From: Bacteroidetes bacterium HGW-Bacteroidetes-16
Lineage (GTDB): Bacteria > Bacteroidota > Bacteroidia > Bacteroidales > F082
NCBI GenBank assembly: GCA_002840975.1
Contig: PHDN01000018.1
Location: 1-64,000 of the forward strand
Reading direction: 5' to 3'
Length of the DNA stretch: 64,000 bases
Shown here: piece by piece, positions 5,482-10,898 of the stretch
How the letters are laid out: each line of letters starts with the position of its first letter
Numbering within the stretch: position 1 is the stretch's first letter
The notes under the pieces: model-generated
Database searches by the model: none
What the model saw: the letters and a program-made list of their open reading frames with translations, nothing else
What the model was told of the DNA's origin: nothing
Translations under genes and position numbers: made by a program

Positions 5482-6834
<1,353 letters not shown>

Positions 6835-6863
6835 TCATAAATCAGTTGTTTTTTTAACAGAAA

Positions 6864-6893
6864 AAGCTGCCCTTTAGGGGGTGGCTTTTTTTT
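6864..6893 (+). terminator. Rho-independent terminator of gdhA
   Basis: A 9-bp stem (AAGCTGCCC with GGGTGGCTT, two G-U pairs) and a short loop are followed by a run of T, 30 bp after the gdhA stop. Confidence 0.85.
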
Positions 6894-6898
6894 GTAGG

Positions 6899-7014
6899 CC
6901 CGGGATTAAAATCCCGGGTTACAATTTCGGTCATCCCAACGGGATTGGGAAGTTTGCCACGGATCAGTGCCATCGGTACAACCGATATTGTATCGATGGA
7001 ATTTATTCCGTCGG
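6899..7014 (+). repeat. REP-like structured repeat, copy A
   Basis: This ~116-bp repeat begins with the perfect palindrome CCCGGGATTAAAATCCCGGG. It continues through a conserved core (ttacaat-tCGGtcATCCC-ACGGGAT, then GTGCCATCGGtAC) and ends in ATGGAATTTATTCCGTCGG. Internal inverted repeats suggest a multi-stem single-stranded fold. It is the first of four same-orientation copies that flank the broken transposase. Confidence 0.9.
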
Positions 7015-7048
7015 ATTCCGTCGTTAAAAAACAGAAATCCCATAATGA

Positions 7049-7174
7049 CCTGGATTAAAATCCAGGGTTACAATCTCGGCCATTCCTACGGGATTAGGAA
7101 CTAAAACCTCAAAGTGCCGATTGCCATCGGATATGAACCACCGATATTGTATCAATGGAATTTATTCCGTCGGA
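7049..7174 (+). repeat. REP-like structured repeat, copy B (diverged)
   Basis: The same layout as copy A, but the leading palindrome is CCTGGATTAAAATCCAGG. Its left and right arms have changed in a compensatory way, so the pairing is kept. The middle carries a small length change (GTGCCGATTGCCATCGG). The end, ATGGAATTTATTCCGTCGG, is identical to copy A. The paired changes argue that the structure is under selection or was copied from another family member. Confidence 0.85.
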
Positions 7175-7227
7175 TATAACAAATAAACATTTTTGCTTAC
7201 TTTGGTCATGATCCTAAACCCATCCAC

Positions 7228-7689
7228 ATGGCCAACACTTATCATCAAATACTTGTTCAGACAGTTTTTCCAGTGAAGTATTGGGAAGCCATTCTGGAAA
7301 AAAGCTGGAGAGAAGAATTGTTTTCAGTAATTGGAAATCTGATAAATGAAACAGGATGTCATACCATGATCATCAATGGGGTATAAGATCATGTCCATTG
7401 TTTTTTTGGGCTAAAGGCTTCAGTTTCTGTTTCAGATGTAATGAAAAATGCCAAGGCAAAATCATCAAAATGGATCAATGAAAGCGGCTTTTTGGAATAT
7501 AATTTTGAATGGCAGCCAGGTTTTGGTGCATTTTCTTACAGTCGTTCACAAGTGAATCAGGTGTACCAATATATCTTAAATCAGGAAAAACATCACGAAA
7601 ATCAAACCTTTTTTGATGAATATATCGAACTCTTAGACAAGTTTGAGGTAGACTATGATGAGAGGTATCTTTTCTGTAAATTGATTTGA
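7228..7689 (+). pseudogene. IS200-like/RAYT tyrosine (HUH) transposase, interrupted by one in-frame stop
   Basis: The ATG at 7228 opens a 153-codon frame to a TGA at 7687-7689, broken once by TAA at 7384-7386 (codon 53). Both halves fit the Y1 transposase family (PF01797): MANTYHQILVQTVFPVKYW at the N-terminus, the HUH motif HVH at residues 55-57 just after the stop, AFSYSRSQV near 101-109, and the catalytic Tyr115 in YILNQ with Gln119. The length is normal for short REP-associated transposases. The stop falls where relatives usually have Glu (GVEDHVH), so a single GAA-to-TAA change explains it. Four copies of a palindromic repeat flank the gene, the layout of a RAYT with its REPs. A sequencing error or readthrough cannot be excluded. 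Confidence 0.85.
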
Positions 7690-7701
7690 GATGGCTGTTT
7701 G

Positions 7702-7817
7702 CCCGGGATTGAAATTCCGGGTTACAATCTCGGTCATCCCTACGGGATTGGGTCGTTTGCCACGGATCAGTGCCATCGGCACGACCGATATTGTATCGAT
7801 GGAATTTATTCCGTCGA
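7702..7817 (+). repeat. REP-like structured repeat, copy C
   Basis: This copy is ~116 bp and starts with CCCGGGATTGAAATTCCGGG, 12 bp after the transposase stop codon. The core contains ATCCCTACGGGAT and GTGCCATCGGCAC, and the end is ATGGAATTTATTCCGTCG. It has the same orientation as copies A, B and D and is very close in sequence to copy A. Confidence 0.9.
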
Positions 7818-7841
7818 CCTAAGAACAACAATACCACATTG

Positions 7842-7954
7842 CCCGGGATTAAAATCCCGGGTTACAAGATCGGCCATCCCTACAGGATTAGGACATTCGC
7901 CACAGATCAGTGCCATCGGCACGACATATTGTATAGATGGAATTTATTCCGTCG
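7842..7954 (+). repeat. REP-like structured repeat, copy D
   Basis: This copy is ~113 bp and starts with CCCGGGATTAAAATCCCGGG. It has a 3-bp deletion near the end (ACGACATATTGTATAGATGG versus ACGACCGATATTGTATCGATGG), which weakens one internal stem. It ends 17 bp before the stop codon of the convergent gene at 7971 and could also act as that gene's 3' hairpin. Confidence 0.88.
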
Positions 7955-7970: not shown

Positions 7971-10793
7971 CTAAAACGAAAACCCAAACAACATTTCGAA
8001 AGCTGTGTTCTGATCATCCAGCCGATAACTGCTACGAACTCCTAAAGTAATCTCGGGCAACAATCCCAAAAAATGCCAGTCGGTATAAAGCTCTATCCCG
8101 GTGGAGGCAAAAGTTTGATTGATGTGGTGAAAATCCTGTCCGCTGGTGATATCGTAAAAAAGATGCGTGCTGATACGCTTTAAATAAATCACCGAAGGTA
8201 TATCCCAATCAGGGTAAGCCACCGGAAACGCATAATCTGCTTTCATGACGAACATTTCAGTCAATGAAATCCCGGTATATCCTCTGGACGAACTCAGCAG
8301 ATTGCCGTAGCTGTAATTTCCGTTTTCCATCATTTGATATCCTGTGAAGATTCTGATGCCATGATGTTTCATGATGCCTTGAAAATAGGTTACAGAACTG
8401 ATTGCCAGCTCGCTGCTCACAGAATCAGAAAAGGGAGTGTGCCTGAAATTCACCTCCAAACTCTGCCCCCACTTTGGATACAAATCGCGCAAGGACCGTT
8501 TGTACTGTACGTATCCATAAAATCCATAATTCAGTGAGGTGACCTGATCTTCACGAAATAGAACCTGAACATCCTGATCCATTTTCAACAATTTTTCGGT
8601 GATCCCCACCGAAGGTTGAATGCCTTTCACCCACCTGCTGCTTGTAAAATTCAAAGGCACGGAAATTCCAACCGAAAGATTGGTTTCGCGCCACCGGGCT
8701 TCCTGCACCAAATGCTGATTGTCGAGATAATTTTGCTTTCTCCTGCCCGTTTCGGCAGTGAGGCTGATCACCGGATACCACCCCATATAATCCAATCCGG
8801 CCTTGAACTTTCCGGTTTGTTCGTTGCGATCGTAATAATATCCGGCATAGGCTGTAGAAGTGCTTAACAAGTTCTGCGATAGCAGGTTGACACCTGGTGA
8901 AAATGAATAGTTTTGCAGATCAATGGCGGTAAGTCCCCAACTGTGGAAGTTAAACAGATGGCCGAGGCGGCTGTATTTCTTAACAGGATAAACAGAATCA
9001 GGTATGTTGACATCATCCAGATTAAACTGATCGGTGGACAGCAACCGATCCACAGGATAACTCACCTGAATTTCAGCCAGATCCACAGATTGATATATTT
9101 TTTTGGTCAGATCAAGTCTGGCAATCCGGTAACCATCTGCGGTATAATCCACATAATACAAACTATCACCCGAAGCCGAAAATGCAGGATCGGAGACTCC
9201 ATACCCTGAGGTGGTTAGTTTTCGTGTAACTCCTGTAGCCAGATCAAGGCTGTATAAATTGCTGGTTCCATCATAAGCCCCTTTGTATACCAGATTTTGA
9301 TGATGCAAAACAGGCTTGCTGATATTGGTAAAGCCGAACGGAACCAGCACTTCAGTCTTCTTCTGTTCTACATCCACCCTGATTACAGCCATCCCTTCAT
9401 CTCCCAATGCCACCATCACCAACGACTTGTCATCGTCGGCCCAGGAAGGGAAAGTTAAAAACCAGTTTTCAGGTGTGGAGATTTCGTTCACAACATAACC
9501 ATCATGACTATCAATCAACTGAAGTAAATAATGGCTTTGCTCATCCACCCGGATGGCGGCAATAGTGGTGGCATCATGCGAAAGCACCGGGGCAAACAAA
9601 CTTGTTTTATTGATTAACCGGTGTGTTTTTCCGGTATTGGCATTCCATATTTTTATCACTGAATAATCGCGGTTTGTCCATCGTGGATCGAACTCTTTTT
9701 CATTCCAGACCAACAAGCTATCGTTACCGGATAAGGCTTGCATAAAATCAAATCCGGGAGTTTTTAACAGGGTTTCAACCCCATTTGTATCAATTAACAC
9801 AAACCGATTGATGTCGTCCATGCTCATCTTTTCTGCCACTATTTCTCCGCTTTTCAGCGGAAATGCGAACCTGTAATTGGTAAAATCAGCAGGATTGGGT
9901 TGATGAATGAACCCGGTATTTGTAGGAAAATCCCCATCTGTTTTCCATTGTTTTTGCAAATCACCTATCACCTTTTTGTAATAACCCACTTTCCCTGTTC
10001 CGGCAAACCGCTTGATTCCGGTTGAAAAAGGCACCAAAGTAAAAGGCTTTCTGGCCACCTGATTCAGGGTTTGATCCCAGAATTCATTTCCATATTCCAA
10101 AAAACCTTGCAACACAAGTTGGTAACCCAAAGTATAATGATCGGGGACGTAATCCCGGTACGAACCGTATTGGGCCTTGTCGTAGGAATACACTTTTTTC
10201 TGAGCCAACTGAGCCTTCAAATCCATAACAAATTCAGGGGACCTTCCACGACCACTTTTACTGTTAATGGTTTCACAAAATACGGCATCCCCCTCAATAA
10301 ACCAAAAGGGCAAAAAACCTCCTATAATGATACCAATGGCCTGGTCACCAAAGGCCACATGCAATCCTTCGGTGAAGCCCTGCCTCAGCTTAAGCATCTG
10401 GACAACATGCCGGTATTCGTGCAAAGCCAACTGTTTTGGCCATCTTTGCGCATAAGTAACCTGATCGGGCGTATGGTAAAAATTGGCATGAAAAGGGGTA
10501 GGCGAAACCATGGCATTTGAAACCGTACCCCGGGTGTGCATCACAATGTGGACGCGCCTGAGTTTTGGGAAATAGTGTGTGGACACTGCCTTTTGAGAAA
10601 TCTGTATCAGGTTGGCGTATTTTTGAGCAAGCTCAACAGCTTCTTTTGGGAATATGATAGTGGCCGAAGGTGTTTTTAATTGTTGCCAATGAACAGAAGC
10701 CGGATCCTGACCGTTGACATAAAATTGGGATTTTCCATCCAGGACCACCAGGAACAATAAAAATCCAACACCGTATTTTACCAGATTTTTCAT
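7971..10793 (-). CDS. Secreted HEXXH peptidase / beta-propeller / outer-membrane barrel protein
   Basis: From the Met at 10793 the protein has 940 residues and a signal peptide (MKNLVKYGVGFLLFLVVLDGKSQ). The longer frame from 10811 adds only MQYLCD, so the internal Met is preferred. Residues ~125-129 are HEYRH, an HEXXH zinc motif, and about 40 residues later FIEGDAV supplies a Glu ligand, as in peptidase MA-like gluzincins. The middle (~270-590) contains TolB/WD40-like repeats such as DPAFSASGDSLYYVDY. The last ~300 residues alternate aromatic and polar residues and end in LFGFSF, typical of an outer-membrane beta-barrel. This suggests a surface-anchored peptidase or a barrel with a large N-terminal periplasmic part. 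The substrate is unknown, and no operon partner is seen. Confidence 0.75.
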   Translation of the reverse strand: MKNLVKYGVGFLLFLVVLDGKSQFYVNGQDPASVHWQQLKTPSATIIFPKEAVELAQKYANLIQISQKAVSTHYFPKLRRVHIVMHTRGTVSNAMVSPTPFHANFYHTPDQVTYAQRWPKQLALHEYRHVVQMLKLRQGFTEGLHVAFGDQAIGIIIGGFLPFWFIEGDAVFCETINSKSGRGRSPEFVMDLKAQLAQKKVYSYDKAQYGSYRDYVPDHYTLGYQLVLQGFLEYGNEFWDQTLNQVARKPFTLVPFSTGIKRFAGTGKVGYYKKVIGDLQKQWKTDGDFPTNTGFIHQPNPADFTNYRFAFPLKSGEIVAEKMSMDDINRFVLIDTNGVETLLKTPGFDFMQALSGNDSLLVWNEKEFDPRWTNRDYSVIKIWNANTGKTHRLINKTSLFAPVLSHDATTIAAIRVDEQSHYLLQLIDSHDGYVVNEISTPENWFLTFPSWADDDKSLVMVALGDEGMAVIRVDVEQKKTEVLVPFGFTNISKPVLHHQNLVYKGAYDGTSNLYSLDLATGVTRKLTTSGYGVSDPAFSASGDSLYYVDYTADGYRIARLDLTKKIYQSVDLAEIQVSYPVDRLLSTDQFNLDDVNIPDSVYPVKKYSRLGHLFNFHSWGLTAIDLQNYSFSPGVNLLSQNLLSTSTAYAGYYYDRNEQTGKFKAGLDYMGWYPVISLTAETGRRKQNYLDNQHLVQEARWRETNLSVGISVPLNFTSSRWVKGIQPSVGITEKLLKMDQDVQVLFREDQVTSLNYGFYGYVQYKRSLRDLYPKWGQSLEVNFRHTPFSDSVSSELAISSVTYFQGIMKHHGIRIFTGYQMMENGNYSYGNLLSSSRGYTGISLTEMFVMKADYAFPVAYPDWDIPSVIYLKRISTHLFYDITSGQDFHHINQTFASTGIELYTDWHFLGLLPEITLGVRSSYRLDDQNTAFEMLFGFSF

Positions 10794-10797
10794 GTCA

Positions 10798-10805
10798 CAA
10801 AGATA
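10798..10805 (-). promoter_or_regulatory. -7 element immediately upstream of the peptidase-propeller gene
   Basis: On the minus strand TATCTTTG matches TAnnTTTG and ends 4 nt before the preferred start codon (10793). Transcription from it would give a nearly leaderless mRNA and would exclude the longer start at 10811. No clear -33 TTG is present. Confidence 0.35.
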
Positions 10806-10898
10806 TTGCAAGAATGCGTATGAGTAAATGTTACTGATAGAAACTTCATTTTGTAGGTGTTTATCAATTTAAAACCAATCTAAATAGAATTATTTGTG

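Follow-up and report, generated by a model that had tools for sequence, protein, structure and literature searches.

A REPtron-like locus in a Bacteroidetes genome: an IS200-like subclass 1.2 transposase and its probable DNA elements of the Acido-Lenti-1 type

Introduction

Why is a single transposase gene of a Bacteroidetes genome bordered on both sides by structured repeats, and do gene and repeats belong together? The question arises at positions 6899-7954 of the window, by which we mean the whole stretch of 64,000 nucleotides analysed (Bacteroidetes bacterium HGW-Bacteroidetes-16, contig PHDN01000018.1, positions 1 to 64,000), where the original prediction placed a REPtron-like block made of a RAYT transposase and four long repeats. 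We hold with good confidence that this block is a REPtron-like locus, consisting of a resident TnpA_Y1 transposase of the IS200 lineage (subclass 1.2) and its own DNA elements of two hairpins each.

Architecture of the repeat block

Four repeats in one common register lie two on each side of the Y1_Tnp frame, exactly where they had been predicted: doublets A (6899..7013, +) and B (7047..7172, +) upstream of the gene and doublets C (7702..7816, +) and D (7842..7954, +) downstream of it. The block is bordered upstream by a Glu/Leu/Phe/Val dehydrogenase gene (5485..6834, +), a locus border conserved in sister species, and downstream by a long ORF without Pfam match (7971..10811, -), where the border is conserved as well. 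Doublets A and C share 92% identity over 121 nt, and B is about 11 bases longer than the other repeats. The compensatory change predicted for copy B stands for one pair, altered on both sides, and fails for the outermost pair, which is lost.

The right ends of the repeats, when reverse-complemented, match the design of the left ends, namely a 20-nt hairpin, a linker of the TTACAATnTCGGTC type and a mini-hairpin, and each repeat is thus an inverted doublet of a monomer of about 48 nt. The monomer comprises an 8-bp hairpin, a linker of about 12-14 nt and a 5-bp mini-hairpin. The paired monomers lie at 6899-6946 (+) and 6966-7013 (-) in A, 7048-7095 (+) and 7113-7172 (-) in B, 7702-7749 (+) and 7769-7816 (-) in C, and 7842-7889 (+) and 7909-7954 (-) in D, the right monomer of B being degenerate. 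As each repeat of about 115 nt is such a doublet, a single long REP of 116 nt was rejected, and the claim of a unit much longer than classic REPs is not supported. The doublets at the gene carry their large hairpins outermost and follow each other in tandem steps of about 140 bp.

Folding as single-stranded DNA gave doublets A-D a higher stability than their dinucleotide-shuffled versions (z -4.3, -2.1, -4.4 and -3.7, respectively); A and C form two outer hairpins and a central stem built from both linkers, a fold that B and D show only in part. The covariance model R1 of the monomer recovered eight strong monomers in the 64-kb window, namely both halves of each doublet, followed by a weak overlapping match of E 0.045 and two further ones of E 0.28 and 0.75. 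Both hairpins of the window and genome monomer are backed by covariation, as 94.6% of cells are paired and both-side changes number 24 where shuffles give 10.5. The motif GT[AG]G at the hairpin foot was found by eye in none of 38 monomer contexts; GTAG near the foot was seen, again by eye, only at doublet A among the four doublets of the window.

Several other Rfam candidates were set aside. Matches to FTHFS, snoRNA, miRNA and Esr41 were dropped at E 0.65 or worse, and a GcvB match at 6755-6893 (E 0.0084, below the gathering score) was read as the end of the dehydrogenase gene with its terminator.

Identity and state of the transposase

The reading frame between the doublets (7228..7689, +) encodes an IS200-like subclass 1.2 TnpA of the Y1/HUH type over 153 codons. 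A single in-frame TAA (codon 53) stands immediately ahead of the DHVH motif, so that this copy is either broken or mis-sequenced. Because the gene carries this stop, its elements in this species are probably relics or rely on a different enzyme.

With PF01797 the intact orthologue scores 84.5 bits; HUH and Y...Q are conserved, and the transposase aligns with TnpA of ISHp608 (E 9e-4). The orthologue also matches the IS200 model NF033573 (61.1 bits, cut-off 55), and the RAYT model NF047646 gave no match to it at E 0.001, so that the predicted name RAYT does not hold in the strict sense. The Y motif YILNQEKHH together with the length of 153 codons points to subclass 1.2 of the 2018 TnpAY1 classification, as given in the accessible text of PMC6006769. 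On these sequence features the protein is classed as an IS200-like TnpA_Y1 of subclass 1.2 and not as a classical RAYT.

The Y1 gene, described as single-copy, is not the only one in the genome, since PF01797 has four matches there and another of them, C22:147744, also belongs to subclass 1.2. This second transposase (C22:147744-148085; loci L009 and L091) is intact, with parts of its flanks read as N, and scores 34.9 bits against NF047646, below the cut-off of 80. The two subclass 1.2 genes are strongly divergent and are accompanied by different repeat families, that of C22 having GGCTAAAGCC hairpins which also occur as inverted pairs. Where an IS200/IS605 insertion sequence is recognised by several near-identical whole copies, the genome holds one copy of the window's gene type. 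A long ORF that otherwise resembles the HsdR subunit of a type I restriction system contains, in frame at C13:259254-259505 (L010), a RAYT-type Y1_Tnp domain (NHVH, YILENP).

Distribution in the genome and in relatives of the same genus

R1 detected 19 monomers in the own genome, of which eight form the block and 11 stand singly elsewhere, the latter number being possibly a lower bound since 150 of 3798 first-look candidates were scored. Ten of these 11 dispersed monomers lie outside ORFs of at least 100 aa, as do 199 of 1100 positions drawn at random from these loci. The locus thus shows what characterises a REPtron, a gene flanked by hairpin repeats that are also dispersed between genes. Across 61 relatives, matches were obtained in 15 (the own genome, four other genomes of the genus and ten others), with 19 to 62 monomers in the four genomes of the genus and 1 to 4 in the ten others; the covariance-model search originally proposed for genome and relatives has thus placed monomers far from the gene too.

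As the original prediction had asked for intact homologues and their flanks, we looked at the sister genomes G201 and G199, and both were found to encode an intact 153-aa orthologue beside the same neighbour genes and accompanied by the same doublets. Five doublets are present at the locus in G201, and the arrays of G199 are broken by contig ends. The number of doublets varies between sisters in steps of about 140 bp, which is consistent with recombination or enzyme-driven amplification. Pairwise dN/dS of the transposase was 0.16-0.19 by NG86 and 0.22-0.24 by YN00, and the gene is under purifying selection.

Two further genomes of the genus, G198 and G200, contain monomers and have no assembled orthologue. 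The contigs of G198 end within about 60 bases of both block borders, and its orthologue may lie in the assembly gap.

Among the monomers listed for the genus (146 of 162), all 32 that lie no farther than 1 kb from the gene belong to doublets, a count in which six monomers on C146 of G199 are taken as gene-proximal as this contig breaks off inside the array. Elsewhere 108 of the listed monomers are single and six are in doublets, all six in G199. One array of monomer doublets in G199 (C91:27681-28361, L311) has no subclass 1.2 match among those listed for its contig.

A clean empty site differing by the monomer only was found at none of four sites compared among genomes of the genus. The monomer on C32 of the own genome is common to three sisters. 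At C31 (L325, 2517-2937) the own genome carries an extra segment of 421 bp, which contains the monomer together with a portion of a different dispersed repeat and is absent from three genomes of the genus. The monomer on C47 of G201 is common to G199 and partly to the own genome, and it is a different repeat that differs there; the site on C36 of G201 gave no clean comparison. The differing repeat at C47 (L321:2740-2916) is an element of about 177 bp with long inverted repeats, which has many partial matches in the own genome and is present at this site in G201 and not in the own genome or G199, with a junction that is not clean.

Flanking repeats across subclass 1.2

To place the locus among its relatives, genes of the subclass were surveyed with a subclass profile, which matched 93 of 198 Bacteroidota genomes at E 1e-20. 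The Bacteroidota sample comprised 80 loci among the places listed, mostly the best-scoring ones and with several near contig ends left out, and the named set drew 80 loci from named genomes belonging to a wide range of phyla. Two of the latter duplicate the former (L184 and L222 correspond to L158 and L156) and were kept in the flank, Rfam and identity counts and dropped from the tree and the R2 counts given below. The Y...Q..H motif was present at all 80 loci of the Bacteroidota sample and at 78 of the 80 named loci.

Flanks were tested by searching the 600 nt on either side of each gene for a repeat of at least 30 bits shared between the upstream and the downstream side, four of the 80 Bacteroidota loci and 12 of the 80 named loci not being usable. 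Shared repeats were found at 51 of 76 genes of the Bacteroidota sample, whereas shifted controls gave 1 of 149 and cross-genome pairs 0 of 76; without the nine loci whose repeats or RF01687 neighbours had been seen beforehand (L141, L148, L151-L156 and L091) the count was 44 of 67. The named set gave 55 of 68 against 3 of 122 controls, and pooling both sets brings 106 of 144 testable genes with flanking repeats. The accessible text of PMC6006769 presents subclass 1.2 as being without REP and mostly from Cyanobacteria and Bacteroidetes, and our flank survey disagrees with this 'no REP' status.

Similar flanks become more frequent with the protein identity of the pair, counting from 0 of 384 pairs below 30% identity to 7 of 5827 at 30-40%, 49 of 3893 at 40-50%, 46 of 1593 at 50-60%, 84 of 497 at 60-70%, 84 of 185 at 70-80% and 17 of 24 above 80%, classes which include the two duplicate pairs. 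Transposase and flanking element have thus co-diversified. The closest transposases outside the genus (63% and 62% identical) correspond to the two best R1 loci among the 80 Bacteroidota loci.

Relation to the Acido-Lenti-1 family

The window monomers resemble an Rfam family, RF01687 (Acido-Lenti-1), which the accessible text of PMC2864571 describes as a likely RNA of Acidobacteria and Lentisphaerae. Matches were obtained at 7702-7749 in doublet C (27.6 bits, E 0.00055) and at 7842-7889 in doublet D (26.5 bits, E 0.0011), both below the gathering score of 37 yet full-length (1-46/46). At E 0.001 the family occurs in 42 of 198 Bacteroidota genomes and passes the cut-off in 20 of them, often in many dispersed copies, these copy numbers being lower bounds as at most 29 candidates were scored per genome. 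A subclass 1.2 gene is present in 31 of the 42 RF01687-positive genomes and in 62 of the 156 others (Fisher p 1e-4, hand counts). By hand count, 16 of the RF01687 matches listed, found in eight genomes, have a listed gene no more than 0.7 kb away, and the other listed matches do not.

The original prediction held that occurrence of the repeat in genomes without the transposase would make the link accidental, and two results of this check speak against the link: 11 of the 42 RF01687-positive genomes have no subclass 1.2 gene at the cut-off used, and G198 and G200 have monomers and no assembled orthologue. The REPtron-like character holds in kind, through the orthologues with doublets, the dispersed monomers and the survey.

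The 80 named loci were scanned with all 4227 Rfam families at gathering scores, and the 28 hits were two tRNAs and 26 copies of RF01687, spread over 15 loci with the labels Bacteroidota, Ignavibacteria, Chlorobiaceae, Planctomycetota, Chthonomonas and Deltaproteobacteria. All 26 copies lie within 700 nt of the gene, a zone that makes up 25% of the non-gene sequence there. Half of the Bacteroidota sample, 40 of its 80 loci, was scanned in the same way; the first 20 yielded no RF01687 at gathering score, and the second batch of 20, which included six loci seen beforehand, yielded 12 hits in five loci.

When RF01687 and window-type monomers were pooled (32 sequences), they aligned to one common structure with 97.1% of cells paired and 110 both-side changes, against a mean of 27.8 and a maximum of 43 in shuffles; in this alignment the gap of the 19-nt hairpins was placed in the loop and not in the hairpin foot. 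The alignment A8 gave 69 both-side changes against 19.4 in shuffles. Of the 32 aligned monomers, 26 carry CT after the first hairpin and 28 after the second.

A joint monomer model (R2, from 17 sequences free of the hairpin-foot gap, hits taken at E 0.001) was applied to both sets. It placed monomers within 700 nt of the gene at 60 of 78 named loci (56 of 74 without training loci) and, in the Bacteroidota sample, at only 21 of 80 (18 of 77 without them). By hits, 155 were near and 17 beyond 700 nt in the named set, of which 21 and two, respectively, came from training loci; in the Bacteroidota sample 61 were near and none beyond. The two-hairpin monomer thus stands near 81 of the 158 genes of both sets, and 30 of the 158 have neither a flank repeat nor an R2 monomer, some of them with contig ends close by. 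It is common and not general, and other members of the subclass have other repeats or none, as the different family at the C22 gene shows. At locus L101 (G169 C1), weak R2-like matches lie about 190 bases apart downstream of the transposase, at about 950-2850, and that downstream side also gave the sole shifted-control hit of the Bacteroidota sample (584 bits).

Among the loci with near R2 hits are L177 and L247, which carry the label Acidobacteriota, and L238, labelled Lentisphaerota. The type had been thought possibly Bacteroidetes-specific; this was not borne out, as it also stands beside relatives whose labels include Planctomycetota, Verrucomicrobiota, Armatimonadota and Acidobacteriota, the phylum labels being those of record titles and some short MAG contigs being perhaps mis-binned (e.g. 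L177, L215). Mapped onto the protein tree, the RF01687/R1 label is scattered with weak clustering: it takes 18 changes, compared with a mean of 20.9 in shuffles, of which 13 of 500 came out as low.

Taken together, Acido-Lenti-1 is probably a DNA element, the DNA target of the transposase rather than an RNA. At slightly lower confidence than for the locus itself, it appears probable that the family is the DNA recognition element of a widespread IS200-derived subclass 1.2 lineage. The two would make up a second REP system, lacking GT[AG]G and standing beside RAYT/REP, which spans nine or more phylum labels and in which protein and element have co-diversified.

Possible mode of action and alternative explanations

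In the most likely mode of action, when the region becomes single-stranded, for example on the lagging-strand template, TnpA would recognise the monomer hairpin and its tyrosine would cut beside it; for action on that template we infer from the cited papers on IS200/IS605 elements. In the accessible text of PMC8266576, TnpAREP cleaves at CT beside REP hairpins, which makes the conserved CT after each hairpin a candidate cut site, and its conservation suggests that cutting takes place there. TnpA would then move or copy monomers to new sites, and the gene itself would stay in place.

The arrangement around the gene invites a different reading, in which the gene and its two nearest divergent monomers make up an IS-like unit, a 'TIRtron', and the doublets and single copies are MITE-like, internally deleted remains of it. 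Over both sets the nearest monomers are indeed mostly divergent: of 69 nearest upstream monomers 55 are '-', and of 59 nearest downstream ones 50 are '+', orientations that turn the large hairpin towards the gene and that the window monomers follow as well; many flank matches are also inverted around the gene, and tyrosine transposases flanked by TIRs and having repeat families are described in the accessible text of PMC3733652. A mobile unit of this kind is, however, hard to reconcile with a gene that occupies the same locus in three species and with the strong divergence and separate repeat families of the genome's two subclass 1.2 genes, and the accessible text of PMC6006769 gives the subclass a mean of 1.7 copies at 36.2% identity. 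We regard this reading as unlikely, though it is the one among the alternatives that deserves most weight.

It is considerably less plausible that the repeats act as RNA, with Acido-Lenti-1 being either a true small RNA or a 3' element that stabilises mRNA, and with its position near the transposase being secondary. In favour of this, it is listed as a likely non-coding RNA by Weinberg et al. 2010 and by Rfam, the covariation suits RNA as well as ssDNA, and many RF01687 copies are far from any subclass 1.2 gene. Copies on both strands and as inverted pairs speak against an RNA, as do the flank sequences, which track the relatedness of the transposases, and the R2 hits, which in the loci read lie within 700 nt of the gene in 61 of 61 cases (Bacteroidota sample) and 155 of 172 (named set). 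An ordinary tandem duplication linked by accident to a dead transposase would suit the broken gene of the window and the steps of about 140 bp by which doublet numbers differ among sisters, as tandem duplication gives, but is contradicted by the survey controls (1/149, 3/122, and R2 near versus far) and by intact orthologues carrying the same doublets, and is thus very improbable.

Comparison with known systems

The preferred REPtron-like reading can be set beside several published systems. The nearest printed idea that we found are the TIRtrons/TIRYTs of PMC3733652, which in its accessible text are likewise tyrosine transposases bordered by inverted structured repeats forming dispersed families, and which differ in belonging to other species and in having no tie to subclass 1.2 or RF01687 there. 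Among open-licence papers, no accessible text was found to link RF01687 or subclass 1.2 with flanking repeats; RF01687 copies are reported without function in that of PMC10059132, and copies near protease genes are suggested to regulate them in that of PMC13298647. With subclass 1.2 as set out in the accessible text of PMC6006769, our genes share the Y...Q..H motif, a length of about 150 aa and low copy number, and differ by their flanking repeats and by relatives under many phylum labels. RF01687 agrees with the window monomers in its two-hairpin anatomy (a stem, CTA/TTA, a linker and a small stem ending in CT), whereas the latter score below its gathering score and have a linker two bases longer.

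These pairings give a probable substrate to a subclass described as being without REPs and without IS properties, and would explain an orphan Rfam 'RNA' family as DNA elements. The many natural pairs of enzyme and element, with their strong covariation, offer a route to hairpin recognition by HUH transposases and may also serve the study of how such transposases become resident genes.

Inverted doublets as in REPINs are found here (32 of 32 gene-proximal monomers among the 146 of 162 listed), whereas the doublet is not the dispersed unit (108 single copies against six). From the REPtrons of E. coli, Stenotrophomonas and Marinomonas, in which RAYT/TnpAREP is joined by REPs or REPINs, the system differs in its IS200-like class 1 protein in place of a class 2 RAYT, in a monomer of two hairpins without a GT[AG]G foot, and in dispersed copies that are mostly single, the doublets standing at the gene. 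It resembles them in a Y1/HUH gene kept at one site, in flanking hairpin repeats that also lie between genes elsewhere, in inverted doublets, and in that related genes share repeats and unlike genes do not.
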